From Paraburkholderia aromaticivorans (GTDB lineage Bacteria; Pseudomonadota; Gammaproteobacteria; Burkholderiales; Burkholderiaceae), in NCBI RefSeq assembly GCF_002278075.1, contig NZ_CP022992.1, positions 1 through 64,000 of the forward strand: DNA of 64,000 bases. Reading direction: 5' to 3'. Positions 184 through 56,362 of this stretch are shown here, one piece after another (the stretch's first letter is position 1; the number at the start of each line of letters is the position of its first letter). The notes under the pieces were generated by a model. It was given only the letters and a program-made list of their open reading frames with translations. It was not told where the DNA came from and made no database searches. The translations under genes and the position numbers were made by a program.

Positions 184-243
184 AACCCTAGCGGGGCACA
201 CAGCCCTGCAGGGTTGTCTGCTTCGCGTTTCCCGGAGCAGACC
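184..243 (+). promoter_or_regulatory. SD-sequestering leader of the gene at 244
   Basis: P1 pairs CCCTaGCGGGG with CCCTGCAGGG. P2 pairs GTCTGCTTC with GGAGCAGAC (one G-U), which buries the ribosome binding site GGAG. The first in-frame ATG after P2 fixes the gene start. Confidence 0.75.
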
Positions 244-1497
244 ATGAATCAACCTCGTTCGCGGCCACGCCGCAAGGTCTCGCAAGACCAGATTGTGCTG
301 CCGTTACTCGATTGCATCGAAAACGACGGCGGCAAGGCGCATACCCACGACCTTTACGACGCGATCGCACTCAAGTGCGGCGTGCCGGAAGTCGAACAGC
401 AAGAAACGACGCTACTCGCCGGACGAAATGTCAATGTGTACCAGCGATCTGTCAGGTGGGCGCAGCAGCGCGCCCGTTTGATGGGACTGATCAACTCGTC
501 CGGTCGCGGCGAATGGGAGTTGACAGGCAAGGGGCGAGACGCACTGCGTCAGGCCGCACCTGGCATCGTCATCACCATCTTCACGACGAGCAAAGGCGTG
601 GCGCTGTTCGGCGAAGCGAAGGAGGCCGTCGCGCACATCGACGACGGATCTCTCAGACTGATCCTGACGTCGCCCCCGTATCCGCTTCTGCGCGAAAAGC
701 AGTACGGCAATAAGCCTGTCGAAGAGTATCTCGACTGGCTGATGCGGATTGCTGAACTGTGGCCGCAGAAGCTGGCGGGCGACGGCTCGGTGGTGCTCAA
801 CCTTGGAGACGTATTCCAGAGCGGCGCGCCGATGTTGTCGACGTATCAGGAACGGCTAATCATCCGACTCGAGGACGATCTGGGATGGAAGCTGTGTTCC
901 CGGTACGCATGGCACAACCCGTCGAAGATGCCAGCGCCGGCGGAGTGGGTCACCGTGCGCCGCGTCCGCGTCAAGCCGTCGCTCGAGCAGATCTACTGGC
1001 TCGCACCGAACGGCGAGCCGTATGCCGACAATTCGCAGGTACTCGTGCCGTACAGCGAGTCCATGCGATCGCGCATTGCCGCTGGTGGCGAGAAGGGGGC
1101 AGTACGACCCAGTGGCCACGAGCTGTCGGCCGGGGCGTTCGACGTCGACAACGGCGGGGCGATACCGCCCAATCTGATCGTCGCGGCGAATACCGAGTCG
1201 AACAGTCATTACATGAAGGCTTGCCGCGAGCAGGATCTGCCGGTCCATCCGGCGCGGTTTCCGGGCGCTGTCCCGGAACACTTCATCAAGCTGTGCACGA
1301 TGGAAGGCGACACGGTCTACGACCCGTTCTCGGGTTCGTTCAAGACTGGCGCAGAGGCTGAGCGCCTTGGCCGGAACTGGATCGGAAGCGAATTGATGCT
1401 TGACTACGTGTTGGGGGGAGCAAACCGCTTTCCGGATGCAGTACTCACACGGCAAGTCATCGGTGATTTCCGGCGAGCCGCGGATCTTTTCGCCTGA
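244..1497 (+). CDS. beta-class DNA methyltransferase with N-terminal Mrr_N-like domain
   Basis: A 417-residue protein. Motif IV TSPPY is near residues 141-146 and the SAM-binding motif DPFSGS near residues 360-365. Motif IV preceding motif I is the beta-class order, shared by N4-cytosine and N6-adenine enzymes. Residues about 13-105 resemble the winged-helix Mrr_N domain that often provides target recognition. An upstream in-frame start at 181 would translate the regulatory leader, so the ATG at 244 after the leader is preferred. No cognate endonuclease is adjacent; the next gene of the operon (3311) is unknown and is separated by an IS. It may be an orphan modification enzyme; the methylated base and site cannot be read from the sequence. 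Confidence 0.85.
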   Translation: MNQPRSRPRRKVSQDQIVLPLLDCIENDGGKAHTHDLYDAIALKCGVPEVEQQETTLLAGRNVNVYQRSVRWAQQRARLMGLINSSGRGEWELTGKGRDALRQAAPGIVITIFTTSKGVALFGEAKEAVAHIDDGSLRLILTSPPYPLLREKQYGNKPVEEYLDWLMRIAELWPQKLAGDGSVVLNLGDVFQSGAPMLSTYQERLIIRLEDDLGWKLCSRYAWHNPSKMPAPAEWVTVRRVRVKPSLEQIYWLAPNGEPYADNSQVLVPYSESMRSRIAAGGEKGAVRPSGHELSAGAFDVDNGGAIPPNLIVAANTESNSHYMKACREQDLPVHPARFPGAVPEHFIKLCTMEGDTVYDPFSGSFKTGAEAERLGRNWIGSELMLDYVLGGANRFPDAVLTRQVIGDFRRAADLFA

Positions 1498-1507
1498 GCA
1501 GGCATGT

Positions 1508-1535
1508 CGGCACCACTTCCGGTGCCTGAATTTTT
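1508..1535 (+). terminator. possible intercistronic terminator or attenuator
   Basis: The hairpin GGCACC-acttcc-GGTGCC is followed by TGAATTTTT just after the methyltransferase stop. The T-tract is also the ISL3 target site. Before the insertion it would have led directly into the leader of gene 3311. Confidence 0.4.
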
Positions 1536-1572
1536 GGCTCGTCGGCGGAATCTGTGGGTGGTTTGATGCGAT

Positions 1573-2013
1573 TCATGAGGGACAGAGGAAGCGATAGAGT
1601 TTCTTGCAGGTAGCGTCAAAGGCGTTCTGCTCGTGCTCGGAGAGGTGCCTCGAAAGCGGGCCACCGAACTCGTGGATCTCATTGAGAAGCAGTGTGCGGG
1701 CATCCATGGCGGCTAAGTCCGGATCGACGTGACGGACTTCGATGAGATGGCCACCAAGCATCCAAAGGTGATCGCGGTGGCGGTGCAACGTTTTGCGGGC
1801 ATAGCCGTGGGTCAGCAGGTGTTGCAGGAAAGGTGTGAAGACCTTCACGAGCGCCTGTCCGAATGGGATGTCCTCGTCCTCGAAGCGCCATGAGGCAGGC
1901 CAGTTCTGCAAGTCCGGGACGTAGCGCTCCAGTGCGTGCGGATCTGAGGTAACAATAGCGTCTTTACTGATTCCCGCGCGCTTGCTAACCATGTTGCTGA
2001 CCCGCCTGCTCAA
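1573..2013 (-). CDS. IS passenger protein, possible SAM-like DNA-binding fold
   Basis: A 146-residue protein divergent from the transposase; the two 5' ends overlap by about 23 bases. It is unchanged in the second IS copy, so it belongs to the element. The central segment (FLQHLLTHGYARKTLHRHRD) resembles the core-binding, SAM-like N-terminal domain of tyrosine recombinases, but no catalytic domain follows. A role as a transposition accessory factor or regulator is inference. An internal start at residue 8 is also possible. Confidence 0.6.
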   Translation of the reverse strand: MSRRVSNMVSKRAGISKDAIVTSDPHALERYVPDLQNWPASWRFEDEDIPFGQALVKVFTPFLQHLLTHGYARKTLHRHRDHLWMLGGHLIEVRHVDPDLAAMDARTLLLNEIHEFGGPLSRHLSEHEQNAFDATCKKLYRFLCPS

Positions 2014-3237
2014 TGCCTGCCATCATTTTCCCGGCTTCGTCTATGAAAGTGCCCGACTGTGCGAGCAGTCCAAAACCATCGAGATCGACGTGCGGCCACG
2101 CAAGGGTTCGAAGCCGATCTGTTCGTGTTGCAACCGGCCTGGCAGCGGCTATGACACGCTCGCATCGCGTAGTTTCGAATTTATTCCGATCTGGGGCTTC
2201 GCGGTGATTTTGCTGTACGCCATGCGCCGCGTCGACTGCCGTGAGTGCGGCGTGAAGGTCGAGACGGTGCCGTGGGCCATCGGCAAGCACACGCTGACCA
2301 AGGCCTACATGCTGTTTCTCGCGCAGTGGGCACGCAAGCTCTCCTGGAAAGAGACAGCGCAAAGCTTTCGCACCAGTTGGGAGAAGGTTGCCCAGGCGGT
2401 GGAGTGGGTGGTCGACTGGGGGCTGGCCCATCGCGAACTCGGCACCATCCGCGCTTTGGGCGTCGATGAAATCCAGTATGGCCGAGGGCACAATTATCTC
2501 ACGCTGGTCTATCAGATCGAGGCCAGCTGCGTGCGCCTGCTTTGGGTTGGCCAGGAGCGCACGAAGGAAAGCTTCGCAAAGTTCTTCGTCATGATCGGCA
2601 AACGGTTGTGCGAGCAGGTCGAGTTCGTCTGCTCGGACATGTGGCGGCCCTACATCGAGATGATCGCACTACATTGCCCAACGCGCTGAACATCCTCGAC
2701 CGCTTCCACATCGTTGCCAAAATGAACAAGGCGATCGACGAGGTTCGCGCCGAGGAAGCTCGCCGCATGACCCGCGACGGCTATGAGCCAGTCCTCAAGA
2801 AGTCCCGCTGGTGTTTGCTCAAGCGGCCAGAGAACCTTACTGACAATCAGCGACTGCGCCTGCGCGATCTGCTGCACTACAACCTGCGCAGTGTCCGCGC
2901 CTATCTTCTCAAGGAGGAGTTCCAGCAGATCTGGGATTACATCTCGCCTGTCTGGGCAGGCAAGTTCCTCGATCAGTGGTGCACCCGGGTCATGCGCTCA
3001 CGCATCGAACCAATGAAGAAGTTCGCACGCACCGTGCGCGCCCATCGAGAACTGATTCTCAACTACTTTCATGCGCGCAAGCAGTTCTCCAGCGGAATCG
3101 TCGAGGGTTTGAACAACAAGGCCAAAGTCACCATGAGAAAAGCGTACGGCTTCCGGACGTTTCGAACGACGGAAATCGCGCTATATCATGCACTTGGCAA
3201 TTTGCCCGAGCCGCCGACAACCCACACTTTTTACTGA
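1991..3237 (+). pseudogene. tnpA: ISL3-family transposase, frameshifted
   Basis: Compared with the intact 415-residue copy on the minus strand at 9038-10285, a CCCC run has lost one C near 2678. The reading frame is split into about 1991-2689 and a downstream piece ending at 3237. The N-terminal zinc-binding cysteines (CSCC, CREC), the GVDE and SDMW motifs of the DDE core, and the GIVEGLNNKAK motif carrying the catalytic Glu are still present but in two frames. Copy 1 is probably dependent on copy 2 for transposition. A sequencing error in the homopolymer is the alternative. Confidence 0.85.
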
Positions 3238-3252
3238 CGAACCGAATTTTTT

Positions 3253-3310
3253 TACCCTTGCGGGAAGCTCCCGAAAGGGGGCGCTTCTCGCACTTTTCTT
3301 GGAGTAGCGC
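3253..3310 (+). promoter_or_regulatory. SD-sequestering leader of the gene at 3311
   Basis: P1 pairs CCC..GCGGG with CCCG..GGG. P2 pairs GCGCTTCTC with GAGTAGCGC (one T-T mismatch). The ISL3 element is inserted immediately upstream, so any readthrough from the methyltransferase operon is interrupted. Confidence 0.7.
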
Positions 3311-3994
3311 ATGAACAACACTCAATCCCAAGTCATCGAAGCCTTCGAGGGTTACCTGGCCTTCGACGGTATTCGTATCGATGTCGGGTTTCAGGCGCCG
3401 GCCGGCGCGACGGCAGATCAAAAGGATGTCGCTTTCCTGGCGGAGCTTGCTCAGCAAGCGGAGATCAACTATCTGTCGGTTGGCACGACCACCGTCCCGG
3501 TGACCTCCGCAATGCCTACCGCCTCGTGCTTCTCGACGGCCGATGCTGACCGTCTCCTCGGTCTGGCCGACCAGTTCCTCGAGGACTGGAAGCAGACCGA
3601 TCGAGACGATCGCCGAGATGGCGGCGTGGATCCGGAACTGGTCGAACGCCAGGCCGAATACGCAGCCATCCGCCCTTTGTTCGTGGCGGCGCCGGAGATG
3701 TTCGCGGCGATTCAGGAGCTTTTCCCCAGCCTCGAACTGCTGCCGGACGGTGCATTTCGTCTGACCGTGGCGAGCAACGGCGAGTTTCGCCAGTGGATCT
3801 GTATCGTTCGACAGTCCAGCAGTCAATGGATCGTCGAGCACAATTTTTCCACTGAACAGTTCGAGGTGGGGTCGTTTCTCGAAGGCCTGCGACTCGCAGA
3901 CAAAATGCGGGACAGTCATATCGAGGACATGGCCCGCCGCGCAAACGTGCTTCCCCGGAAGCAGGTTACTCAAGGCGAGTCATCGCGCCCGTAA
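3311..3994 (+). CDS. hypothetical protein, leader-controlled
   Basis: A 227-residue soluble protein with no signal peptide or membrane segment and no motif I recognise; it is acidic in the middle part. The start ATG follows the leader SD (GGAGTAGCGC). It was probably the second cistron of the methyltransferase operon before the IS arrived; a strong terminator follows. Function unknown. Confidence 0.7.
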   Translation: MNNTQSQVIEAFEGYLAFDGIRIDVGFQAPAGATADQKDVAFLAELAQQAEINYLSVGTTTVPVTSAMPTASCFSTADADRLLGLADQFLEDWKQTDRDDRRDGGVDPELVERQAEYAAIRPLFVAAPEMFAAIQELFPSLELLPDGAFRLTVASNGEFRQWICIVRQSSSQWIVEHNFSTEQFEVGSFLEGLRLADKMRDSHIEDMARRANVLPRKQVTQGESSRP

Positions 3995-5011: not shown

Positions 5012-5076
5012 TTCCTGCCAGGAAATTATTTGGTATGATGGGGACGCTTCTCACGGTAGCTGGACCGAAACCAGCC
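5012..5076 (+). promoter_or_regulatory. operon-head promoter box and 5' hairpin
   Basis: Perfect-arm palindrome TTCCTGCCAGGAA at 5012-5024 and -10-like TATGAT at 5034-5039. The 5' hairpin GCTGG-accgaaa-CCAGC lies in 5055-5076, followed by the small hairpin CACC-gttc-GGTG. Confidence 0.8.
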
Positions 5077-5123
5077 AAATCGGCCGATCCTGGACCGTAA
5101 CCTTCCTCGCACCGTTCGGTGCT

Positions 5124-5185
5124 CACCCTCGCGGGGCATTCATCCCGCGCGGGACGTCTGCTTCGCGTTTTTCAAGGAGTAGACG
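5124..5185 (+). promoter_or_regulatory. SD-sequestering leader of the gene at 5186
   Basis: P1 pairs CCCtcGCGGG with CCCGCgcGGG. P2 pairs CGTCTGCTTC with GGAGTAGACG; the SD GGAG is inside the stem and ends against the ATG. Confidence 0.8.
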
Positions 5186-5344
5186 ATGCCCTTCATCGAA
5201 GTGATTGACTGCGGTTGCTGCGGCTATTTTCATCCTCAGAAGTCCGATGGTGGCTGCCGGGACAACGCTGATCGCCTGACCGGCGACCAACTCGACGCCC
5301 AGTTCGGCACGGCCGGCTGGCAAATCGCGGAAGCGGCTGAGTAA
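5186..5344 (+). CDS. 52-residue Cys-rich small protein
   Basis: Begins at the ATG directly after the leader stem. The N-terminal DCGCCGYFH segment with a further Cys at about residue 24 could bind a metal, but this is too short to assign. First gene of the 5186-5431-5785 operon. Supported mainly by the leader and codon use. Confidence 0.6.
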   Translation: MPFIEVIDCGCCGYFHPQKSDGGCRDNADRLTGDQLDAQFGTAGWQIAEAAE

Positions 5345-5361
5345 GCCATTCCTTTCTTCAG

Positions 5362-5430
5362 CCCCTGGGGTCCGTGTTTCCCCGGAGGGAACGTGGACTC
5401 CGAAAAGTCACTTTCCTTTAGGAACCCATC
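5362..5430 (+). promoter_or_regulatory. divergent leader element
   Basis: P1 is clear (CCCctGGGG with CCCCGGaGGG). The expected P2 is poorly preserved; a short GACT/AGTC pairing occurs instead. The SD (TTTAGGA) seems mostly accessible. Confidence 0.45.
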
Positions 5431-5613
5431 ATGAGCAAATCGAAGAAACGTGCGATCGCATATCTCGATGAGCAGCTGGCCAGACAGCGCGCTCAGCGGG
5501 AGGCGTCCGTTCGCGCGGGCCGTGCGGCTTCGAGACCGGTCGATCCCTACGAAATCACGTTCGCGCCGGCGGAGCAGTGCGACGACGCTGCCCAAGCGCT
5601 CGATGCCGCGTGA
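5431..5613 (+). CDS. small basic hypothetical protein
   Basis: 60 residues, Lys/Arg-rich at the N-terminus (MSKSKKRA) with a helical Gln/Arg/Ala segment. No family recognised. Middle cistron of the operon headed by 5186. Confidence 0.6.
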   Translation: MSKSKKRAIAYLDEQLARQRAQREASVRAGRAASRPVDPYEITFAPAEQCDDAAQALDAA

Positions 5614-5718
5614 TTTGTCCGTTCGCAGCCATCCAGCGATGCCGGTTGGCCGCATCTAACGTGGCCGCAAGGCCGACTTCCTGGAGTCGGCCATCCCGTA
5701 AGGGTGGCGGACTCCTGT

Positions 5719-5784
5719 CCCCGGGGCGGGGCACCCATCTCGGTCCGGGGTGAGTGCTTCGCAAAGCACCAGAAGGAGAACGTC
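5719..5784 (+). promoter_or_regulatory. divergent leader element
   Basis: P1 pairs CCCCGG with CCGGGG. The GCTTCGC signature is present, but it closes a small TGCTT-cgc-AAAGCA hairpin that leaves the SD AAGGAG free. Confidence 0.5.
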
Positions 5785-6033
5785 ATGGCAGAAAGCGCAG
5801 TGAAAGCAGCGGTATCCGGCGAATCGGCAATAGACCGTCTCGACCGGATTCTGGCCGACTATGGTTTCAGTACGGACAGCAATTCGCCCCGGCAGTACTT
5901 CCTCGTTTCGACGGTGAGGGAAAACGCCGAGGAAGCCAAGGACAAGGACCTGGTCGAGGCCTGCGTTCAGAAGCTGAAGTCCATGCGCGAGTCGGTGTCG
6001 CGCCAGTTGTTCGCCACGAGCCTGGCGCACTGA
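5785..6033 (+). CDS. hypothetical protein
   Basis: 82 residues, predicted helical and charged, no signal or membrane segment. The start after AGAAGGAG is preferred to an upstream in-frame ATG at 5704, which would translate the leader. Last cistron before a strong terminator. Confidence 0.65.
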   Translation: MAESAVKAAVSGESAIDRLDRILADYGFSTDSNSPRQYFLVSTVRENAEEAKDKDLVEACVQKLKSMRESVSRQLFATSLAH

Positions 6034-8459: not shown

Positions 8460-8524
8460 TTCCTGTCGAGAAATTCCGGGTATAATTTCGCTTGATTTAC
8501 CCGGTAGCTGGACCGAAACCAGCC
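8460..8524 (+). promoter_or_regulatory. operon-head promoter box and 5' hairpin
   Basis: TTCCTGTCGAGAA (8460-8472) and a perfect -10 TATAAT (8481-8486). Hairpin GCTGG-accgaaa-CCAGC at 8503-8524, then CGGCC-CGGCCG and CACC-gacaa-GGTG hairpins before the leader. Confidence 0.8.
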
Positions 8525-8582
8525 ATTCCCGGCCGTGTTCTCGGCCGCGATCTCTCTGCACCGACAAGGTGTGGCCCATCTT

Positions 8583-8642
8583 TACCCCTGCGGGATGTTG
8601 CTCCCGCGTGGGGCGCTTCTCGCTCGTTCCAAGGAGTAGCGT
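8583..8642 (+). promoter_or_regulatory. SD-sequestering leader of the gene at 8643
   Basis: P1 pairs CCCCtGCGGG with CCCGCgtGGGG. P2 pairs GCGCTTCTC with GAGTAGCGT (one G-U, one T-T). Confidence 0.75.
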
Positions 8643-9017
8643 ATGAATATCCAATCTGCTATCCATCAGGAAGCCGCGCCGTTGGGCGTCGCATCACGGC
8701 CCGCGCGTGTCGTGGTTCTTCCGGACGGTTACAACGGACACACGATGGCCTTTTGTGCCGAGCCCGTCGCAGTGGAAGGCAATGTTGTCAAGCTCCACTG
8801 CGCGGAGCCCGGCAAGGAGTACCTGATCGCTTGGCGTTGCAAAGCCGCCTTCGAGGCGGCGCTCATGACGCGGGAAGGCAGCGAGGAGGTCACGCTGGCT
8901 GAACGCGGGATTGCCGGGTGGCGCGGCACGAACAACGACGAGTACCAGATCTACGTCGAGTCAGCCAAGGCACTCGGGTGGAAAATCAAGACACGCGACG
9001 AATGGCTCAATAGCTAA
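8643..9017 (+). CDS. hypothetical protein, leader-controlled
   Basis: 124 residues, soluble; no motif recognised. It was first gene of a former operon continuing to 10815, 11236 and 11699, now separated from them by an ISL3-type insertion just after its stop. Function unknown. Confidence 0.7.
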   Translation: MNIQSAIHQEAAPLGVASRPARVVVLPDGYNGHTMAFCAEPVAVEGNVVKLHCAEPGKEYLIAWRCKAAFEAALMTREGSEEVTLAERGIAGWRGTNNDEYQIYVESAKALGWKIKTRDEWLNS

Positions 9018-9037
9018 CCGTCGATTTTTTTGGTTCG

Positions 9038-10285
9038 TCAGTAAAAAGTGTGGGTTGTCGGCGGCTCGGGCAAATTGCCAAGTGCATGATATAGCGCGAT
9101 TTCCGTCGTTCGAAACGTCCGGAAGCCGTACGCTTTTCTCATGGTGACTTTGGCCTTGTTGTTCAAACCCTCGACGATTCCGCTGGAGAACTGCTTGCGC
9201 GCATGAAAGTAGTTGAGAATCAGTTCTCGATGGGCGCGCACGGTGCGTGCGAACTTCTTCATTGGTTCGATGCGTGAGCGCATGACCCGGGTGCACCACT
9301 GATCGAGGAACTTGCCTGCCCAGACAGGCGAGATGTAATCCCAGATCTGCTGGAACTCCTCCTTGAGAAGATAGGCGCGGACACTGCGCAGGTTGTAGTG
9401 CAGCAGATCGCGCAGGCGCAGTCGCTGATTGTCAGTAAGGTTCTCTGGCCGCTTGAGCAAACACCAGCGGGACTTCTTGAGGACTGGCTCATAGCCGTCG
9501 CGGGTCATGCGGCGAGCTTCCTCGGCGCGAACCTCGTCGATCGCCTTGTTCATTTTGGCAACGATGTGGAAGCGGTCGAGGATGTTCAGCGCGTTGGGGC
9601 AATGTAGTGCGATCATCTCGATGTAGGGCCGCCACATGTCCGAGCAGACGAACTCGACCTGCTCGCACAACCGTTTGCCGATCATGACGAAGAACTTTGC
9701 GAAGCTTTCCTTCGTGCGCTCCTGGCCAACCCAAAGCAGGCGCACGCAGCTGGCCTCGATCTGATAGACCAGCGTGAGATAATTGTGCCCTCGGCCATAC
9801 TGGATTTCATCGACGCCCAAAGCGCGGATGGTGCCGAGTTCGCGATGGGCCAGCCCCCAGTCGACCACCCACTCCACCGCCTGGGCAACCTTCTCCCAAC
9901 TGGTGCGAAAGCTTTGCGCTGTCTCTTTCCAGGAGAGCTTGCGTGCCCACTGCGCGAGAAACAGCATGTAGGCCTTGGTCAGCGTGTGCTTGCCGATGGC
10001 CCACGGCACCGTCTCGACCTTCACGCCGCACTCACGGCAGTCGACGCGGCGCATGGCGTACAGCAAAATCACCGCGAAGCCCCAGATCGGAATAAATTCG
10101 AAACTACGCGATGCGAGCGTGTCATAGCCGCTGCCAGGCCGGTTGCAACACGAACAGATCGGCTTCGAACCCTTGCGTGGCCGCACGTCGATCTCGATGG
10201 TTTTGGACTGCTCGCACAGTCGGGCACTTTCATAGACGAAGCCGGGAAAATGATGGCAGGCATTGAGCAGGCGGGTCAGCAACAT
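9038..10285 (-). CDS. tnpA: ISL3-family transposase
   Basis: 415 residues, family-typical length. The N-terminal zinc ribbon uses CSCC and CREC pairs. The DDE-type core has GVDE (about residue 157), SDMW and GIVEGLNNKAK. The ATG is chosen three codons inside a TTG alternative. This copy probably supplies transposase for both elements. Confidence 0.92.
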   Translation of the reverse strand: MLLTRLLNACHHFPGFVYESARLCEQSKTIEIDVRPRKGSKPICSCCNRPGSGYDTLASRSFEFIPIWGFAVILLYAMRRVDCRECGVKVETVPWAIGKHTLTKAYMLFLAQWARKLSWKETAQSFRTSWEKVAQAVEWVVDWGLAHRELGTIRALGVDEIQYGRGHNYLTLVYQIEASCVRLLWVGQERTKESFAKFFVMIGKRLCEQVEFVCSDMWRPYIEMIALHCPNALNILDRFHIVAKMNKAIDEVRAEEARRMTRDGYEPVLKKSRWCLLKRPENLTDNQRLRLRDLLHYNLRSVRAYLLKEEFQQIWDYISPVWAGKFLDQWCTRVMRSRIEPMKKFARTVRAHRELILNYFHARKQFSSGIVEGLNNKAKVTMRKAYGFRTFRTTEIALYHALGNLPEPPTTHTFY

Positions 10286-10703: not shown

Positions 10704-10748
10704 ATCGCATCAAACCACCCACAGATTCCGCCGACGAGCCATTTTTTT

Positions 10749-11629: not shown

Positions 11630-11698
11630 AATCCCGGTTGGGCACGTTCCCATCCGGGGATGTGCCTTGCCATCGTTATGTTATTAACGAGGTGAGTC
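11629..11698 (+). promoter_or_regulatory. leader element of the gene at 11699, P2 weak
   Basis: P1 pairs CCCGGtTGGG with CCCAtCCGGG, a covaried version. P2 is degenerate (CCTT with GAGG only). Confidence 0.55.
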
Positions 11699-46341: not shown

Positions 46342-46423
46342 TTCCCAGCAGGAATTGCTTGGTCAAATTTCCGTTATAATTCTCACCAGCTTTCCAGCCG
46401 GTAGCTTGGTCCGTTATCCAGCC
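46342..46423 (+). promoter_or_regulatory. operon-head promoter box and 5' hairpin, longer spacing
   Basis: TTCCCAGCAGGAA (46342-46354) with the -10 TATAAT at 46375-46380, 20 bases from the box rather than the usual 7-9. Hairpin GCTTGG-tccgttat-CCAGC (46400-46423) with one bulge. Confidence 0.65.
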
Positions 46424-46550
46424 AGGCACGTCAGTGCCATCTCCACGCCTGCACAGGGCTCCTCTCCGGTTACGCCGGCGGGGCTATTCAGCACGTTTTT
46501 GCGAGTTCAGCGCCAGTCGGTGCATGGATTCGTCATGCCTTTTTCATTCA

Positions 46551-46604
46551 CCCCATAGGGACGTATATCCCTATGGGATGTGCTCCCTTCATCAGGAGCA
46601 CCAC
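46551..46604 (+). promoter_or_regulatory. SD-sequestering leader of the gene at 46605
   Basis: P1 is a perfect covaried stem CCCATAGGG with CCCTATGGG. P2 is GTGCTCC with GGAGCAC. Confidence 0.88.
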
Positions 46605-47606
46605 ATGAAAAGTGACTTCGATCTAGTCCGGTTGCTCGGTCCCACGGGCGTTGTTCCGGACAACCAGATCAATGCCTGGCCGCCGGAGGATCTGCAGATG
46701 CGAGTAGGGATTCCGCACTGCGGAGGCAAACTCGCCATCCACGCATTCAACAGCGGTTATCCGGTCATGGTTTCCGCCAATGCGTTCTTCAACCATGAGA
46801 CTGGGCAGTTCGACATCCCGCAGTACTCGCCGTTGCAGGATCTGGATGTCGCGTTAGATAGTGCCGGCTACGTCGCAATGATGAATTTCAAAGCGAAGGG
46901 GCGGCAGAACGGCGTCGGGGGTATCTATCCCTGGTCGTACTCGCAGTACTTGACACTGGCCTATCTGTTGCGTCCGAGGTGGTTCAGCAGTATGGACCTT
47001 TGTTGCGAACCCGAGGCGACGAACGGTGGCATCGATACCGATTGGCGCATCCGGGCCACGGCTACCATGCTCGAGGCGTTGCTGCAGATCATCGAGGCAT
47101 GGCAGCAGGAATACGCGAGGGACTGTTCGGCGAGTACCGTCGAGAACGACCTTCGCGCTCCCGTCCCGGTCATTCAAGGCTGGACCTGCGAGGAGTACGC
47201 AGAAAGCCTCGATCTGACGATGGAAGTGTGGGAGCGGCATGGCTGGCTCGCACCGCCGGCGCTCCTCGGGCTGGGTTCAGTTTGTCGGCGTGACCTTCAT
47301 CATCCGAAGCATGGTCTTTTCGCAATCTTGGACGGACTGGAATCTCGTCTGCCAAAGGGAACGAAAATTCACTGTTTCGGCGTGAAGGGGGCGGCGCTCG
47401 ATCGCGTGAAGATGTATCCCTTCGTGGCGTCCTGCGACAGCATGGCGTACGACTACGGTGCCCGTCGTCGTGCTTTTGCGAGTGGTATCTCTAACTCGAT
47501 GGAGCATCGGTCGTCCGAAATGACCAACTGGATGCAGGCGGCCGAAGCTCGCATGCGTCCTCAGGCGGGTGATCAGTTCCGCCTGTCGTTTTTCGAAGCC
47601 GCGTAA
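46605..47606 (+). CDS. DpdA/TGT-like deazapurine DNA-modification protein
   Basis: 333 residues. LDSAGYVAM at about residue 84 corresponds to the DSGG(F) active-site loop of tRNA-guanine transglycosylases. Further on are VPVIQGWTCEEY, LLGLGSVCRR, IHCFGVKG and SCDSMAYDYGARRR, the pattern I recognise from phage DpdA-type proteins that insert 7-deazaguanine into DNA. TGT proper binds tRNA; the DNA role is known only for DpdA relatives. No preQ0 synthesis genes are in the window. Operon with 47675 and 48398. Confidence 0.72.
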   Translation: MKSDFDLVRLLGPTGVVPDNQINAWPPEDLQMRVGIPHCGGKLAIHAFNSGYPVMVSANAFFNHETGQFDIPQYSPLQDLDVALDSAGYVAMMNFKAKGRQNGVGGIYPWSYSQYLTLAYLLRPRWFSSMDLCCEPEATNGGIDTDWRIRATATMLEALLQIIEAWQQEYARDCSASTVENDLRAPVPVIQGWTCEEYAESLDLTMEVWERHGWLAPPALLGLGSVCRRDLHHPKHGLFAILDGLESRLPKGTKIHCFGVKGAALDRVKMYPFVASCDSMAYDYGARRRAFASGISNSMEHRSSEMTNWMQAAEARMRPQAGDQFRLSFFEAA

Positions 47607-47618
47607 GCAGCTTCTTTC

Positions 47619-47674
47619 CCTCACGGGGCACGTTCCCGTGAGGGACGTGCTCCAACTCTTAAGGAGCATTTGTC
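47619..47674 (+). promoter_or_regulatory. SD-sequestering leader of the gene at 47675
   Basis: P1 is a perfect 10-bp stem CCCTCACGGG with CCCGTGAGGG. P2 pairs TGCTCC with GGAGCA plus GAC/GTC. Confidence 0.88.
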
Positions 47675-48328
47675 ATGTCGATCGTCAATTCGCCGTTTGC
47701 GCATCAAGTTAACGGCAAGTGGTTTCTCAGCAGCCATGCGGTACCGCAGTCGCAAACCATGCGGGAGTATCAGGTTCAGGTTCGTGGTGCGTACGGCAAT
47801 TTGCGCGGCGTGAAATTTGCCGAGCAGGGTGTCGACTACGACCACTTCGAGCTTTCGCTGGGAGAACTTTTCCCGCGAAGAAGCGAGAAAACCGTCACCG
47901 ACATGGATCTCGATCTGTGGGCGGCAGCGGAATACGCAATTGGCCGGCCTTTCCATTTCGTGCCGGGTCAGGGTGTTATCTGCAACGGCCACCGTGGCGC
48001 AGTCAAGGACATGCAGGGCAATGGCCTTGTCGAGGTTCGCCTTGCATCCGGGCAGGTGTGCGTGAGTGCCGCGTACCCCGACGTGTTTCCCGATCCGCTT
48101 GATTTTGTATGGCGTCCCGTCCCTGAGCAGGATAAATTGATCCTCTTCAATCGCACTGGACGCGAGTTCATTGCTCTTCGTCGCAGCAAAGGTAAATGGT
48201 TTGCCGAGACTGGCGAAACCTTCCGCAAGCGAGACGAAGCCATGCGAGCAATGGAAGCGTGGGCCCGCAATCGCATTCGAACCGAGTGTGACGAACGTGC
48301 ATCGCGTGCCATGGCTCGCGCAAACTGA
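47675..48328 (+). CDS. hypothetical protein in DpdA-like operon
   Basis: 217 residues, soluble, beta-rich first half and an Arg-rich helical C-terminus (MEAWARNRIRTECDERASRA). No family recognised. Its place directly after the DpdA-like gene suggests a shared pathway, by inference. Confidence 0.65.
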   Translation: MSIVNSPFAHQVNGKWFLSSHAVPQSQTMREYQVQVRGAYGNLRGVKFAEQGVDYDHFELSLGELFPRRSEKTVTDMDLDLWAAAEYAIGRPFHFVPGQGVICNGHRGAVKDMQGNGLVEVRLASGQVCVSAAYPDVFPDPLDFVWRPVPEQDKLILFNRTGREFIALRRSKGKWFAETGETFRKRDEAMRAMEAWARNRIRTECDERASRAMARAN

Positions 48329-48335: not shown

Positions 48336-48397
48336 AACCCTGACGGGGCACGCTCCCGTCGGGGGCGTGCTTCGACAAATCTATGGAGCACAAGAAT
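48336..48397 (+). promoter_or_regulatory. SD-sequestering leader of the gene at 48398
   Basis: P1 pairs CCCtGACGGG with CCCGTCgGGG (covaried). P2 pairs CGTGCTTC with GGAGCAC. Confidence 0.82.
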
Positions 48398-49138
48398 ATG
48401 TCCAAGCAAGTTACTCCGCAGCAACTCGCGGAAATTGTCACGAAACTGTTGACCGGAGATTCGGGCGAGGTGGATAGCCACGAGTCGTTCAGCGGCTTCA
48501 TGACCGATATAGCCAAGGTGGTCTGCGACTACTGTGGTGGCGAGGTGGTGACGGAAGCTGCGCCGCTGGACGATGTATGGTACGTCCCGATCCGCGGCAA
48601 TGAGTGTCTGCCGGATGCATTCGGCGGTATCTGGCGCGACTGCGATCCGGAAGGTCAGTTGTTCGAACAGCCGGAAGAATCTGTTCAGGCCTTGGAAGCC
48701 AAGCCCGCGCCGATTCGGACCGTGCCTGTCGGCGTCAGCCAGCGCAGCACGTTCGCGACCGATGGCTATCGCGATGCGAAGGCAGGACTGCTGGCCAGCG
48801 CGCCGGCCGGTGACCCGGTCTGCGTCGTCGAGTACCTCGCGGGTTATCGTGAGGCAAAGCGCGAGCTCGCCCAAGTCGAATTCGAGAAGTACGATTTCGG
48901 CGATGGTGTCTCTGTGCATGGGCACGATCTATGGGAAACCGGCGACGACGCCGATTTCACCAAGATCGCGTATCTTGAGTATCCGGAGGATGGCCAAGAC
49001 ACCGACCTGCACAAGGTGACGTTCCATGTTCGCTTCAACGCAAACGGAACTTTCACCGAGGCGTATGCCCTGGAGGTCGCGTCTGGCAACCTGATCGGTG
49101 TCCGTGCGGTCCGCGAAGAATCGATCGCATCGGTCTAA
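48398..49138 (+). CDS. hypothetical protein in DpdA-like operon
   Basis: 246 residues, strongly acidic. A lone CDYCGG pair around residues 49-54 and further Cys later do not define a clear zinc site. No family recognised. Last cistron before a terminator. Confidence 0.62.
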   Translation: MSKQVTPQQLAEIVTKLLTGDSGEVDSHESFSGFMTDIAKVVCDYCGGEVVTEAAPLDDVWYVPIRGNECLPDAFGGIWRDCDPEGQLFEQPEESVQALEAKPAPIRTVPVGVSQRSTFATDGYRDAKAGLLASAPAGDPVCVVEYLAGYREAKRELAQVEFEKYDFGDGVSVHGHDLWETGDDADFTKIAYLEYPEDGQDTDLHKVTFHVRFNANGTFTEAYALEVASGNLIGVRAVREESIASV

Positions 49139-50347: not shown

Positions 50348-50413
50348 TTCCTGTCAGGAAATTCGGCTATACTCAAAGCCGATCCTTGATCCGGTAGCTG
50401 GCCGCACTCAGCC
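50348..50413 (+). promoter_or_regulatory. operon-head promoter box and 5' hairpin
   Basis: Perfect palindrome TTCCTGTCAGGAA (50348-50360), only three bases after the previous stop, and -10 TATACT (50368-50373). Shortened hairpin GCTG-gccgcact-CAGC (50393-50413), then GGCC and CGCCGATCCGGCG hairpins. Confidence 0.85.
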
Positions 50414-50454
50414 TAACAGGCCAGAAATGGCTTTCTTCACGCCGATCCGGCGTT

Positions 50455-50514
50455 ATCCCTCGCGGGGCATTCTGCCCTGCGGGCCGTCTGCTCCGCCTTA
50501 CCCAGGAGCAGAAC
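50455..50514 (+). promoter_or_regulatory. SD-sequestering leader of the gene at 50515
   Basis: P1 pairs CCC..GCGGGGc with CCCtGCGGG. P2 pairs TCTGCTCC with GGAGCAGA, a full Watson-Crick stem. Confidence 0.8.
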
Positions 50515-50976
50515 ATGTCCAACCCCGTTTTGATTTCCCGCGAACTGCTGCGGTCACTGATCACCATGTCGAAGGATCAGGTGCAGGGTCACGTCGGCGC
50601 TTCCGGCGATCTCGATCTTCCGGCAAGGAAGAGCGCAATCGCCGCAGCGGAAATCCTGTACAGCCAGTCGGAGATTGCATTCTCGGATCTCAACGTCTGC
50701 CCGAGAATCGCGACGAACCACATCATGCGCGAAACTAACGATCTCCTGCAGTCCCAGGGTGACAACAATCCCTGGTGCTACTGCGGGGACTACGAGTTCG
50801 GTTTCTTCCTGTCCGTCCCATCCGACGGGGCTGTCGAGGATTACGCGAGCCAGGGCTACCCGGTTCCGGCGGATCTTCAGGCCTTGTGGGCATGGGCGCG
50901 GGAACGCAGTTTCAGCTGGATTCAGCTCGACGCCGACGGCTCCGATGTGGATGGACTGACGGCGTACGACTGGTAA
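50515..50976 (+). CDS. hypothetical protein, possibly DUF5983-like
   Basis: 153 residues. The C-terminal half (CGDYEFGFFLSVP, then FSWIQLDADG) resembles a plasmid family I tentatively associate with DUF5983. Function unknown. First cistron of an operon with 51072 and 51436. Confidence 0.6.
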   Translation: MSNPVLISRELLRSLITMSKDQVQGHVGASGDLDLPARKSAIAAAEILYSQSEIAFSDLNVCPRIATNHIMRETNDLLQSQGDNNPWCYCGDYEFGFFLSVPSDGAVEDYASQGYPVPADLQALWAWARERSFSWIQLDADGSDVDGLTAYDW

Positions 50977-51314: not shown

Positions 51315-51372
51315 GGCACCTGATTCCGCGATCCGTAGTGTGACGCCGTCGGCACGAGGCGTCAGTTTTCTT

Positions 51373-51435
51373 ACCCGGAGGGGCGTATTCCCTTCGGGAG
51401 TGCGCTTCTCCTCTTTTCGACGAGGAGTAGCAAAA
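51373..51435 (+). promoter_or_regulatory. SD-sequestering leader of the gene at 51436
   Basis: P1 pairs CCCGgAGGG with CCCTTCGGG (covaried). P2 pairs GCTTCTCCTC with GAGGAGTAGC, one mismatch. Confidence 0.82.
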
Positions 51436-51783
51436 ATGCATGTTCAGTTGCAAGATGCGGCGGTTCAGGCTGCGATCATCGGGGGCCTTTTCACCCTGAC
51501 ATCGGCGGTGATCGCTGCGGTGGCCGCGGCGGTGATCGGCAAGCGGTTCGACAATCAGCGCAAGCTGAAGTTTCTGCTGGACCGCGCCGTTCGCGATCTC
51601 GCTTTCGCCCTTGCGGTCGAAGACGAGCATTGTGCGATGCATGTCCAGGAACGCGGTGAGTCGTTCAAGAAACGCATCCGGGACAAAGTCCGGGAATCCG
51701 GCCTGGAGTGGTCGGGTGATTTCACGCCGGGCCGGGCCCGACACATGATCGCGCGATACGCGCAACGAAGTAACGCAGAGTAG
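51436..51783 (+). CDS. single-pass membrane protein, leader-controlled
   Basis: 115 residues. One N-terminal membrane segment (about residues 11-35, Ile/Ala/Val-rich), then a basic cytoplasmic domain. No family recognised. Confidence 0.6.
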   Translation: MHVQLQDAAVQAAIIGGLFTLTSAVIAAVAAAVIGKRFDNQRKLKFLLDRAVRDLAFALAVEDEHCAMHVQERGESFKKRIRDKVRESGLEWSGDFTPGRARHMIARYAQRSNAE

Positions 51784-52078: not shown

Positions 52079-52147
52079 TTCCTACCTGGAAATCTGCGGT
52101 ACACTATGACCTGATCCATGATCCGGTAGCTAGACCGTCACCTAGCC
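52079..52147 (+). promoter_or_regulatory. operon-head promoter box and 5' hairpin, covaried
   Basis: TTCCTACCTGGAA (52079-52091) and -10-like TACACT (52100-52105). Hairpin GCTAG-accgtcac-CTAGC (52125-52147), a second independent GCTAG/CTAGC version. Confidence 0.75.
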
Positions 52148-52299
52148 AATGGCCGATCCACCCGGATCTTGGCCGTCACCGTTGGTCGTTCTGACCGGTT
52201 GCCGCTGGCAGCCAGATTTTCCCCACTTGGTTACCTCGACGTGCATCCCATGCGGGAGAAGGGCGCATCTGCGTTCGGCATCGACAAGTAACCGTTTTT

Positions 52300-52360
52300 A
52301 CCCACGCGGGTTGCAGTCTCCGCGAGGGGATTGCTCCTCGCATCTCTCAGGAGCATTGGC
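52300..52360 (+). promoter_or_regulatory. SD-sequestering leader of the gene at 52361
   Basis: P1 pairs CCC..GCGGG with CTCCGC..GGG. P2 pairs TGCTCC with GGAGCA. Confidence 0.7.
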
Positions 52361-52579
52361 ATGACTGTTTCTCAAACGACGTTCCCGCTGTACATCCGTT
52401 GCGCTCTCGAGGTGTTTTCGCTGTCGGGCGCACGCACGAAGGCACGTTTGCGCGAGTTGCTGGACTTCTATTTCCGGTCCGCCGGCGAACCGCTCGGTCG
52501 CGAGCGTTCCGCTGTGGAGGATACGGTGATGTCGTTCGCAAGTAGCTACTGGAATCTGGGGGCGGCGGAAGGTTTCTGA
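52361..52579 (+). CDS. small hypothetical protein, leader-controlled
   Basis: 72 residues, soluble and helical. No family recognised. First cistron before the DndC-like gene. Confidence 0.55.
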   Translation: MTVSQTTFPLYIRCALEVFSLSGARTKARLRELLDFYFRSAGEPLGRERSAVEDTVMSFASSYWNLGAAEGF

Positions 52580-52633: not shown

Positions 52634-52694
52634 ATCCCTGCGGGAAACACTTCCCGCAGGGGGGGTGTTCTCTCGCATCAACCTGGAGAACACC
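52634..52694 (+). promoter_or_regulatory. SD-sequestering leader of the gene at 52695
   Basis: Both stems perfect: P1 CCCTGCGGG with CCCGCAGGG, P2 GGTGTTCTC with GAGAACACC running up to the ATG. Confidence 0.9.
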
Positions 52695-54542
52695 ATGTTT
52701 GACGAAATACTCGCGAAGATGGAAATCGTCATCGCGATCCTGATGCAGAAAATCGCAGCAGGACACGTTTTGCAGTGCGGCTATAGCGGGGGCAAGGATT
52801 CGACATGCGTTGCGCTTCTGATGCTCGAGGCAGTGCGCCGTTCGAAAGCAGCTGGTGTCCCGCAAGCCCGGCATTACATCGCGACGTCGGATACGCAGAT
52901 CGAGAACCCTTCGCTGTCCAACCACCTTCACATCGCACTCGAAGAAATGAGTGCGTTCTGCGAGGACCACGATCTGGACGTAGAGGTTCATGTCGCAAAA
53001 CCTTCGCTCAGCGCGCAGTTCGTCGTTTCTCACATCGGTCGGGGAACGTTGATCCGCACACCGGAGAACGGCGTAAAGAAGGATAAGGCGAGCGGAGAAA
53101 GCAAGACTGCTCGCGCGTGCGCCTCCGATTGGAAATTGGTCCCACTCGGTCGTCTTCGTGCATTGCTTGAGCGCGAAGCTGCGGGTTCAGGATACCGCGA
53201 AACCATTGTGCTGTTGGGTACGCGTTTTTCCGAAAGCCCTGTTCGAGCAGCGCTGATGTCTGAGCGTCAGGAAAGTCATCTGGAACCAACGCGACATAAG
53301 GATGGTTACCTGACTCTCTCATGCATCGCAGACTGGGATCTTTCAGACGTGTGGGACATGGTGTCGATGTTTTCGGATTCGCGTTTCATTCCGTTTGCCT
53401 CGCCACTGTCGATTCGCACGATCCAGCGGATGATCGATCTCTACCGGGCCGGTAACGAGGGTACCTGTGGCGTGACGATCGGCGACGGGGGAAACAAGTC
53501 AGCGTGCGGCAGTCGATTTGGCTGCGCGTTTTGTTGCGTGACCGGCGAGCGCGACAAGTCGATGGAGTCAATGATCCAGGAACCCGAGCATGCGCACCTG
53601 GCTGGGCTCAATCGCTTCCGGAACTACCTACTTGCAACGCAGTGGGACATGTCGAAGCGTGAGCTGGTCGGTCGCAAGATCAGCGCGGCCGGCTATACGA
53701 GGGTGCAACCTGACGTGTATTCGTACCAGCATCGGATCAGCTTGCTAAAGTATCTCGTGACTCTAGACGTGCTGGAGCAGGAACGAGCTGAGCAGCACCA
53801 GGCCGATCTTGCCGAAGGTGTTATCGAGGATACGGAAAGCAATCGTGAGCTGTGCGAGGTGCAGTTCCAGTTCGTGACGCCACAGCAGCTCGTGGCGGTC
53901 GACTTCTTCCTGTCGATGCATCACTACGCACCACATGCTTTTCCGGCCCTCTCTGTCTGGCACGACGTGTACACGCTGGGACGTCGCTATTATGTCCCGG
54001 TCGTTGAAACGAAGCCCAAGGTACCGATCCCGCTTCACGGATGGTATCGGGTGGGGAAGTACGATGCCGAGGCGCCGGTGGATGGTCTTCGGGACTACCT
54101 GGCAGAGCAGTGGAATCGCTTTCTCCATCCGGACCGTGTTTCCGCGTACGCCGTAACCACCAATGGTGAGCGCGTCGCGTATTTCGAGGAATGCGATCAG
54201 ATGGAGGTCGACGCGGAAGAGGCTTGCGCGTTTGTGACCTGTACGTTCGATACCCGTTTCATGCTGGAGAGCCAGGTGTACCCTGCAATGTATTCAGCCC
54301 GCTTCTGGCTGAATGAAGGGATTCTCAAGCTGCCGGCCGGAATGGCCCAACGCTATCAGGAGATGGCTAAGCGCGGGCAGTACTTCGCCCGCTTGGCAGA
54401 GCGTCTGAACCTGACGCCTCGCGAACTGGATGATCACCTCATCCGCAACGCGATCAGCGACAAGGAGCACGATGCGCTGCTGAACGACGAGAAGAACGAT
54501 ATCTGGGATCTCCAGATGAACCTGTTCGGCGAAGCTGCCTGA
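52695..54542 (+). CDS. DndC-like ATP-dependent sulfurtransferase (SGGKDS)
   Basis: 615 residues. PP-loop YSGGKDS at about residues 31-37. A Cys cluster CGSRFGCAFCCVTGERDKSM at about 271-290 matches the DndC signature (RFGCWTCTVV.KDKS), where the cysteines serve a Fe-S or sulfur-relay role in DNA phosphorothioation. The middle part carries DVWD and FSESPVR motifs of the same superfamily. The C-terminal 250 residues are unassigned. No dndA, dndB, dndD, dndE or SspB-like genes are near, so phosphorothioation is not demonstrated. Confidence 0.75.
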   Translation: MFDEILAKMEIVIAILMQKIAAGHVLQCGYSGGKDSTCVALLMLEAVRRSKAAGVPQARHYIATSDTQIENPSLSNHLHIALEEMSAFCEDHDLDVEVHVAKPSLSAQFVVSHIGRGTLIRTPENGVKKDKASGESKTARACASDWKLVPLGRLRALLEREAAGSGYRETIVLLGTRFSESPVRAALMSERQESHLEPTRHKDGYLTLSCIADWDLSDVWDMVSMFSDSRFIPFASPLSIRTIQRMIDLYRAGNEGTCGVTIGDGGNKSACGSRFGCAFCCVTGERDKSMESMIQEPEHAHLAGLNRFRNYLLATQWDMSKRELVGRKISAAGYTRVQPDVYSYQHRISLLKYLVTLDVLEQERAEQHQADLAEGVIEDTESNRELCEVQFQFVTPQQLVAVDFFLSMHHYAPHAFPALSVWHDVYTLGRRYYVPVVETKPKVPIPLHGWYRVGKYDAEAPVDGLRDYLAEQWNRFLHPDRVSAYAVTTNGERVAYFEECDQMEVDAEEACAFVTCTFDTRFMLESQVYPAMYSARFWLNEGILKLPAGMAQRYQEMAKRGQYFARLAERLNLTPRELDDHLIRNAISDKEHDALLNDEKNDIWDLQMNLFGEAA

Positions 54543-55000: not shown

Positions 55001-55294
55001 TCTGGAGGGTTCTCCTGTCGTTGAGATGCGGTCGGGCGAAATGCCCGCGCGAATTGATTCTAGCGCCGGAGAAATCGCAATCCACCTCTTCAGTCACTTA
55101 TTTCGAATGGGACGTTGTGCACAAACATCGAATTTTTCCGGGAGGATTGATGTAGCAGCCAACGGGTAGTGACTGCCGTGCGAAAATAGCTTCCTGATAG
55201 GAAGCAAATGGAAGGCGCGACACGCCCACTAGAAACAGATTGGCCGGGCAGTACGATTCACGCATCTACCGGGGGGAAACCCAAAGGACCATCC

Positions 55295-56035
55295 ATGAAA
55301 AAAGTGCTCGTCTGTCTCGCCGTGGCCACCGCGCCGATGTTTGCCCACGCTGGCTTGCTCGATTCGGCGCTCGAGGACATTGGCGTCTGGCACCACTCCG
55401 ATACGTCTTCGCAGACGGCAAGCAAGTTCGGCCCGAACGATGGCCACGAATACGGGAGGCCGTATTCGCGTGAGCACGGCGGCGTCCACAAGGCCGGGTA
55501 CGGCCGTAGTGGCGACGATAACGGGAACGAGGACCAGGCGGCGCGCAATGCGCCTCATCATCGCGCCGTGATGTACCAGGCGGCCGGTACGGTAGAGCTC
55601 GGTTTCTCGCCGAACCGCGGTGCAATGGACGTCGTGATCGACGTGATCAACAGTTCCACCAGCACTCTGGATGTCGCGGCCTACGAGTTCACGAACAAAC
55701 GCTACGAGAACGCGGTGCTTGCGGCGATTCGGCGTGGTGTGAACGTGCGCATCGTGGTCGACGCGAAGGAAAACCTCAACAATCCGAGGTCGATCGCCGG
55801 TCCGTTGGCGCAGGCCGGCGCGAAAGTGCGCTATGTCGACGACGCGCCGCTCATGCACGACAAGTACACGATCGCCGACCGCGACACTGCGGAAACGGGC
55901 TCGCTGAACTACACGGTCCGCGCCGAGAAGTACAGCCACGAGAACGCACGCGCAGACTGGCACAACCGACAGGTCGCTGCGTATTACGAATCCGACTTCG
56001 AATATATGTGGGAAAACGCGCACCCGTGGCGCTGA
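55295..56035 (+). CDS. exported phospholipase D-family nuclease (Nuc-like)
   Basis: 246 residues. Signal peptide ending FAHA, a polar Gly/Asp linker (about 30-100), then a single PLD domain with MHDKYTIAD (HxKxxxxD, about residues 187-195) and GSLNYT. This fits the PLD nuclease family of pKM101 Nuc and related conjugative-plasmid endonucleases. A palindromic TTCCTGATAGGAA (55191-55203) lies about 90 bases upstream without a clear -10. Periplasmic DNase is the likely activity. Confidence 0.8.
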   Translation: MKKVLVCLAVATAPMFAHAGLLDSALEDIGVWHHSDTSSQTASKFGPNDGHEYGRPYSREHGGVHKAGYGRSGDDNGNEDQAARNAPHHRAVMYQAAGTVELGFSPNRGAMDVVIDVINSSTSTLDVAAYEFTNKRYENAVLAAIRRGVNVRIVVDAKENLNNPRSIAGPLAQAGAKVRYVDDAPLMHDKYTIADRDTAETGSLNYTVRAEKYSHENARADWHNRQVAAYYESDFEYMWENAHPWR

Positions 56036-56173
56036 TCGGCACGAGGCTTTCCAAGTGCGGCTCCAGCGGACGGGCCGAGCCGGATGGCTGGCCGCATGAG
56101 AAAGGCGCTGAAGGCTCGCCAATCCGAGCCTTCAGAGTCGCCCCAAGGATCAAAAGCGCGTCAGTCAGCACAC

Positions 56174-56241
56174 TTCCTGTCAGGAATGAAACTCGTGCTA
56201 TAGTGGCTGCTGATCCAACGGTAGCTGGACCGAATCCAGCC
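56174..56241 (+). promoter_or_regulatory. operon-head promoter box and 5' hairpin
   Basis: Perfect palindrome TTCCTGTCAGGAA (56174-56186) and -10 TATAGT (56199-56204). Hairpin GCTGG-accgaat-CCAGC (56220-56241). Confidence 0.82.
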
Positions 56242-56299
56242 TATGTGTCCTCTGCGGAGGGCACTTTCTACTTTACCGCTTGCCGGTAACTTTCAATTC

Positions 56300-56362
56300 A
56301 ACCCATGTGGGGCTCGCAGCCCGGCATGGGCTCTTGCTCCACGACACCTTAGGAGCAAGAAA
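56300..56362 (+). promoter_or_regulatory. SD-sequestering leader of the gene at 56363
   Basis: P1 pairs CCCATG with CATGGG plus GGG/CCC. P2 is a perfect 8-bp stem CTTGCTCC with GGAGCAAG. Confidence 0.85.

Follow-up and report, generated by a model that had tools for sequence, protein, structure and literature searches.

We report that the first 64,000 nucleotides (nt) of contig 4 (489 kb; NZ_CP022992.1) in the 8.9 Mb, eight-contig genome of Paraburkholderia aromaticivorans, hereafter the window, carry a leader of approximately 63 nt that stands before many individual genes, encodes two mutually exclusive pairings and is probably a two-state translational switch hiding or exposing the Shine-Dalgarno (SD) sequence of the gene it precedes. 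We document the positions of these leaders, their complementarity, the covariation of the pairing strands and their distribution in other genomes. Two of the three helices concerned, P1 and P2, had been noted in an initial annotation of the window made from the sequence alone; the third helix, P3, and an extra head present upstream of 13 of 27 leaders are new.

The initial annotation counted about 26 leaders with a hairpin concealing the SD, and we place 27 with both P1 and P2, spread over positions 184-56365, without exception on the + strand, 57-71 nt long and each terminating at the start codon of an open frame. Two deviant leaders (5360-5433 and 5713-5787) have a P1-like hairpin and a deviant P2. 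From 5' to 3' the order is a U-rich tract, AA, P1, a short linker, P2 and the start codon. P1 is a hairpin of approximately 9-12 pairs with CCC/GGG ends; P2, which varies from 6-7 up to 12 pairs among the genes of the window, holds the SD in its 3' arm, and its 5' arm, the anti-SD with a CTTC/CTCC core, covers it as proposed. Arms quoted there were found, namely CCCATAGGG/CCCTATGGG in the leader at 46551, CCCTCACGGG/CCCGTGAGGG at 47616, GGTGTTCTC/GAGAACACC at 52634 and GACGCTTCCT/AGGAAGCGTC at 11176. Internal cistrons do carry their own copy, but the statement that nearly every gene has one was too strong (the frames at 6151, 7951, 41487 and 44477 are without a match).

For the scan of the window we used a covariance model, R1, in which P1 and P2 were encoded and P3 was not. 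It was trained on 11 window copies with similar spacing, since plain MAFFT on all 27 leaders misaligned the P1 3' arm. R1 gave 28 + strand matches with E ≤ 0.031 (17 of them outside the training set), and the best - strand match had an E-value of 0.28; the E-values of this model, and of model R2 below, are rough. The leaders, based on P1 and P2 placement together with the R1 scan unless stated otherwise, are as follows:

184-246 (+), leader with P1, P2 (and P3), gene 244-1497 (DNA methylase)
3253-3313 (+), leader, gene 3311-3994
5124-5188 (+), leader, gene 5186-5344
5360-5433 (+), deviant leader without R1 match, gene 5431-5613
5713-5787 (+), deviant leader, predicted P2 mostly excludes the SD, gene 5785-6033
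8584-8645 (+), leader, gene 8643-9017
10749-10817 (+), leader, gene 10815-11105
11176-11238 (+), leader, gene 11236-11586
11631-11701 (+), leader with weak R1 match (E 0.031), gene 11699-12778
12981-13046 (+), leader, gene 13044-13613
13946-14010 (+), leader, gene 14008-14658
15142-15209 (+), leader, gene 15207-16847
17048-17110 (+), leader, gene 17108-17824
17840-17902 (+), leader, gene 17900-18148
18206-18268 (+), leader, gene 18266-19462 (PAPS reductase domain)
21029-21089 (+), leader, gene 21087-22352 (NinX domain)
22360-22424 (+), leader, gene 22422-23210
23494-23558 (+), leader, gene 23556-24398
24403-24465 (+), leader with the P3 state as its lowest predicted fold, gene 24463-25038
25065-25127 (+), leader, gene 25125-25901
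42067-42133 (+), leader, gene 42131-42625
46551-46607 (+), leader, gene 46605-47606 (DpdA-like)
47616-47677 (+), leader, gene starting at 47670 or 47675 and ending at 48328
48336-48400 (+), leader, gene 48398-49138
50455-50517 (+), leader, gene 50515-50976 (DUF5983)
51372-51438 (+), leader, gene 51436-51783
52299-52363 (+), leader, gene 52361-52579
52634-52697 (+), leader, gene 52695-54542 (PAPS reductase domain, below the Pfam cut-off)
56301-56365 (+), leader, gene 56363-57133

In P3 the loop of P1 together with the 3' half of the P1 5' arm, that is, the sequence following the first CCCnn of P1, pairs with the anti-SD, enclosing a P1 3' arm that folds back on itself. P3 thus uses strands of both P1 and P2, and its formation excludes both helices and frees the SD. 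The arms of P3 are GCGGGGCA/TGCTTCGC in several copies, GCGGGAAGC/GCTTCTCGC in the leader at 3253, GCGGGGAGCAT/ATGCTTCTCGC at 22360, GGTGGGGAAGC/GCTTCCTTGCC at 11176 and GGGGCACGT/ACGTGCTCC at 47616; leaders of other genomes have e.g. GGGCAAATCGC/GCGGTTTGCTC (L014) and GGGGCCAAC/GTTGGCCCC (L039).

Pairing was tested by comparing the duplex energy of the segments belonging to one leader with that of segments swapped between leaders (5000 permutations, which control relatedness only through identity cuts). The segments were the 5' arm of P1 with its loop (S1), the 3' arm of P1 (S2), the anti-SD (S3) and the arm with the SD (S4). Set 1 (n = 72) comprised the 27 window leaders, 38 of 54 matches found with R1 (10 overlapping duplicates and 6 antisense matches were dropped) and 7 of 11 plasmid matches. 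Set 2 comprised 111 of 114 matches (three L086 rows, near copies of L085, were dropped), reduced to 84 by a 70% identity cut, and two of these 84 (L053) are common to set 1 and to the training of R2. The latter model, again encoding P1 and P2 and not P3, was built from 66 aligned matches, including two that are antisense to real leaders (L012 1497-1530, minus, and L029 1529-1583, plus). As neither model contains P3, the test of P3 is not circular, while for the sequences found with the models the tests of P1 and P2 partly are.

All three helices covary. In set 1 the z-values for P1, P2 and P3 were -14.4, -16.2 and -14.8, and in set 2 (n = 84) -18.6, -20.7 and -20.3, with 0 of 5000 permutations reaching any of these values. 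After removal of set 1 leaders at least 75% alike (n = 52) they were -12.6, -14.2 and -12.8, and for the window leaders alone (n = 27) -7.9, -9.2 and -7.1. The three control pairings of set 1 stayed between -1.0 and 1.2 in all subsets, and two controls in set 2 gave 0.7 and 0.1. The covariation of P1 and P2 noted initially was also evident in an alignment, A7, of 114 matches from other genomes (110 distinct rows), which was fitted to, and so favours, the P1 and P2 structure: in the fixed columns 90.3% of the cells were paired, 16 of 19 pairs had changes on both sides, and the score was 0.435, compared to 0.134 for shuffled alignments (0 of 500 reaching it) and 0.05-0.09 for slid partners. For P3, whose register shifts from copy to copy, the fixed-column score in A7 was 0.299 versus 0.181 after shuffling, and lower in slid versions. 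Since base composition confounds the comparison of G-U with A-C counts in P3, this comparison was not used as evidence. The SD thus lies within a covariation-supported helix, P2, as expected for an SD-sequestering translational leader, and the covariation of P3, which excludes that helix, would place the element among bistable leaders with an anti-anti-SD.

The palindromic look and the many copies might also suggest inverted repeats acting at the DNA level, either bound by protein or mobile, that happen to precede genes. We reject this explanation: pairing is kept under sequence change, the matches are on the + strand and end at the start codon, and P3 would serve nothing in DNA. That P1 and P2 are a static element, setting a low and even translation or protecting the mRNA, with P3 as a by-product of a P1 5' arm that resembles the SD arm, appears quite unlikely to us. 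The hairpins are very stable and the fold with P1 and P2 is by far the more stable in most copies, as such an element would have it; against it, the P1 loop alone, needed by neither P1 nor P2, covaries with S3 (z = -8.2 in set 1 and -9.6 in set 2). An RNA thermometer, where heat would melt P2, shares the layout of an SD in a hairpin but is very improbable here, given that the length of P2 differs as much as it does among genes of one replicon, that freeing the SD is predicted to cost up to 14 kcal/mol at 37°C, and that a thermometer would require neither P1 nor P3.

Folding energies were computed at 37°C for nested folds only. With the SD zone forced to be single-stranded, P3 was the predicted fold in 22 of the 27 window copies (the remaining 5 gave P1), in 56 of 72 leaders of set 1 and in 73 of 111 of set 2, and self-closing of S2 as a CCC..GGG hairpin is possible in 127 of 136 leaders. 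When the RNA ends where the SD arm begins, the predicted stability of P3 exceeds that of P1 alone in 61 of 72 leaders (24 of the 27 in the window) and in 65 of 84, and the direct-path barrier out of P3 and back has a median of approximately 15 kcal/mol. These two predictions would suit a delayed-folding timer, in which nascent P3 lets a few ribosomes load before the leader refolds and closes, such that only fresh transcripts are translated. We nevertheless regard such a timer as unlikely: P1 is made first, the barriers from P1 to P3 are 13-27 kcal/mol in a nested-path two-state co-transcriptional model, and P3 does not come to dominate at any of the three rate constants used (see below). The nested-path model thus gives no support for spontaneous switching, which a pseudoknotted toehold joining S3 to the P1 loop, lying outside nested folds, could speed up.

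Several results weigh against the two-state switch as well. P3 is the unconstrained minimum fold in only 1 of 27, 7 of 72 and 4 of 111 leaders (window, set 1 and set 2, respectively), and once the SD arm is included the lowest fold is below P3 by a median of 8.75 (set 1) and 9.7 kcal/mol (set 2). In the nested-path model P3 exceeded one half in 0 of 27 window leaders once the start codon was out (k0 = 1e5, 1e6 and 1e7). The control pairing of S2 with S4 was weakly positive in set 2 (z = -2.8 for the 84 leaders and -3.7 for all 111), and the number of P3 pairs with double changes in A7 (7) was not unusual (85 of 500 shuffles). The switch thus requires that a trigger be assumed, and none was found.

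For the two-state switch we propose the following. In the OFF fold S1 would pair with S2 (P1) and S3 with S4 (P2), covering the SD; in the ON fold the 3' half of S1 and the loop would pair with S3 (P3), leaving S4 free, and S2 could close on itself within the P3 loop to give a small CCC..GGG hairpin. P1 would then act as a latch holding the anti-anti-SD strand apart from the anti-SD, and opening P1 or capturing S2 would turn the gene on. Two folds would account for the presence of CCC..GGG in both arms of P1, for the SD-like decoy in P1 and for the loop matching S3. We infer that cells form both folds, that translation differs between them and that a trigger acts; since P1 comes first during synthesis and P3 remains the minority fold in the nested-path model, we read OFF as the default and assume a trigger that opens P1. 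The initial interpretation as a translational switch stands with respect to masking of the SD by P2, and was incomplete in that P3, and with it the two exclusive folds, was missed.

Apart from the pairing logic, no loop or junction is conserved in the module. What pairing leaves unexplained is the AA directly before P1 and, further 5', the U-rich and G-poor tract (positions -10 to -4: T 0.49 and G 0.09; reference positions -60 to -41: T 0.22 and G 0.29; 133 leaders), making this strand a candidate landing site for whatever opens P1. Our best guess at the trigger is a factor or the 30S subunit binding there, just upstream of P1. One antisense small RNA as a general trigger is unlikely, given that the anti-SD arms vary among copies. 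As to RNA regulators borne by the element itself, the single ProQ-domain match in the genome is on contig 1 and not on contig 4, and a search for CsrA found no match. Coupling to an upstream ribosome was likewise discarded as a general trigger: 13 copies are behind heads, and the other 14, which have no head, are 4-91 nt from the preceding frame, as measured from manually entered frame ends.

The heads begin with a GGTAGCTGG-type motif and its pairing partner, with GGCAGCTAG, GGTAGCTTGG and GGTAGCTAG as variants, and their control may extend to the entire operon. Upstream of 12 of the 13 heads, at a distance of 28-45 nt, is a palindrome of the TTCCTGTCAGGAA type with 0-3 mismatches, adjoining a -10-like box identified by eye; it is likely an operator. 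The heads are:

109-183 (+), head of the GGTAGCTGG...CCAGCC type, before the leader at 184
5054-5123 (+), head
8502-8583 (+), head
12911-12980 (+), head
13899-13945 (+), head, no upstream palindrome found
16973-17047 (+), head, GGCAGCTAG variant
20984-21028 (+), head
23423-23493 (+), head, with the first P1 bases a weak DUF3085 RNA match (23423-23505)
41986-42066 (+), head
46399-46550 (+), head
50392-50454 (+), head
52124-52298 (+), head
56219-56300 (+), head

and the palindromes of the TTCCTGTCAGGAA type upstream of them:

66-78, palindrome, 3 mismatches
5012-5024, palindrome, 1 mismatch
8460-8472, palindrome, 2 mismatches
12869-12881, palindrome, 2 mismatches
16930-16942, palindrome, 2 mismatches
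20941-20953, palindrome, 2 mismatches
23383-23395, palindrome, 3 mismatches
41943-41955, palindrome, 0 mismatches
46342-46354, palindrome, 3 mismatches
50348-50360, palindrome, 0 mismatches
52079-52091, palindrome, 3 mismatches
56174-56186, palindrome, 0 mismatches

Palindromes of the same type at 37782, 40500, 55191 and 59387 have no leader close downstream, and the operator, if real, may have a wider set of target genes than the leaders.

In translational riboswitches and trp-type attenuators strand exchange between exclusive helices decides access to the SD. The leader resembles such anti-SD/anti-anti-SD systems in this respect, but no aptamer or leader peptide is seen in the module, which also occurs in dozens of copies on one replicon, one per cistron. 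The leader of the MS2 maturation gene and, inverted, the hok mRNA are delayed-folding systems in which a competing fold can temporarily keep the ribosome-binding site accessible or masked; in contrast to the present leader they concern single genes, and a trigger based on folding order has no support here from the nested-path model.

The initial annotation knew of no described riboregulator with this layout, and this holds for what was searched: Rfam 15 gave nothing at threshold over the window, the module matches no Rfam family in the loci searched, and no description of it was found in the literature searched by title and abstract start. The claim needs a qualification, in that radC RNA precedes some operon-first leaders and one head resembles, weakly and below threshold, DUF3085 RNA. 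The listing in Weinberg et al. 2010 (PMC2864571) has radC RNA as RNA 'Y', cis-reg 'y' and switch '?'. This family (RF01754) has no match in the window, where the leader stays below its gathering cut-off of 40 bits. Rfam gave 11 matches to it at threshold. Three are on pKLC102 and are the only unselected ones; the remaining eight come from 7 of the 75 genome and plasmid loci submitted and thus from loci chosen for the leader. A leader is 8-29 nt downstream of radC RNA in 10 of the 11 cases (in L113, the exception, the next leader is 130 nt away). Thus, radC RNA precedes the same kind of genes as the leader does, but it is located upstream of the module and lacks P1, P2 and P3.

DUF3085 RNA (RF02959) matched one of the 13 heads, with 25.6 bits, which is below the gathering cut-off of 40.6. 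Its consensus starts with CGGuAGCUGGA and ends with CAACCC..CGGG, like a head followed by the first P1 bases; the difference is that its model stops inside P1. The motif is said to originate from a motif paper of 2017. Two further Rfam motifs, STAXI RNA (L106 2132-2287, -) and HEARO RNA (L044 2126-2362, +), are situated near leaders in relatives.

Covariance-model and plasmid searches, as the initial annotation had suggested, found the leader well beyond the window. R1 detected it in 11 of 59 relatives. With R2, at E ≤ 0.001 per genome, it was present in 39 of 399 genomes (32 of 158 genera) at the order level, 33 of 369 genomes (32 of 272 genera) at the class level and 16 of 398 genomes at the phylum level, three of the latter outside the class; each tally includes the P. 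aromaticivorans genome itself and the three sets overlap. Two Burkholderia cenocepacia plasmids (NZ_CP015038.1 and NZ_CP091015.1) and a Caballeronia plasmid (NZ_CP084269.1) carry three leaders each (E ≤ 1.3e-5), with one weaker match (0.0037) and one antisense match (0.012) in addition. On pKLC102 of Pseudomonas aeruginosa seven + strand leaders (E ≤ 0.0021) lie within 40.8-46.6 kb, together with three weaker matches on the + strand (0.23-0.83) and two on the - strand (0.12 and 0.73). DNA-level searches with L107 in plasmids and with L089 in E. coli genomes gave no match.

A downstream frame of at least 60 amino acids was present behind 120 of 138 leaders examined. These 120 frames include 13 RadC, 11 DUF3577/STY4534 integrative and conjugative element (ICE) replication proteins, 4 DUF3275 and single frames for ParB, an antirestriction protein, an ArdC N-domain and DUF3085 (the last behind a leader outside the window); DpdA/DndC-like DNA-modification genes also follow leaders. 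From these gene types, the leader copies in other genomes appear to lie on mobile elements. On the conjugative plasmids and in the other genomes of the phylum the leader probably switches protein synthesis one gene at a time. Orthologues retain it with changed sequence, as seen e.g. for the PAPS-reductase-domain gene of the window and its counterparts in L031, L032, L041 and the two other plasmids. In the window the DpdA-like gene (46605-47606) and the PAPS-reductase-domain genes (18266-19462 and 52695-54542) behind leaders suggest DNA-modification cargo.

With respect to the replicon itself, the plasmid records matching the window most closely resemble it at 70-82% and belong mainly to Burkholderia and its allies. 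At least 41 R2 matches at E ≤ 1 were found in the whole genome among 150 of 4291 first-look candidates scored, and in the same scoring at least 36 were at E ≤ 0.001, i.e. 35 on contig 4 and one on contig 6, with two weak matches on contig 1 (E 0.04 and 0.43). The 35 leaders on contig 4 have one orientation in common, which may be linked to the strand moved in conjugation. An inverted insertion sequence (IS) pair, 1535-3246 (+) and 9029-10741 (-), is 99.9% identical across 1713 aligned nt, and its copies are directly 5' of the leaders at 3253 and 10749. Leaders are absent from 28895-35811, where a large methylase-like frame, with a transposase-like frame (31002-31819) between its parts, and a helicase-like frame look on visual inspection like a cluster of the restriction or defence type.

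The operons of mobile elements are full of genes without assigned function, and an RNA switch shared by them, gene by gene, is a candidate layer of control. It would also supply a context for two Rfam motifs, radC and DUF3085, for which no functional report was found in the literature searched, and the more than 100 leaders form a natural set in which sequences differ and the pairing logic is common. Finally, and more tentatively, conjugative plasmids and integrative elements could be using one plug-in RNA switch, mostly made of pairing logic and hardly of fixed sequence, before dozens of genes and per cistron, with radC RNA and DUF3085 RNA as the operon heads feeding it; replication, partition, anti-restriction and DNA-modification genes might then be switched together at the level of translation, e.g. 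after entry into a new host.

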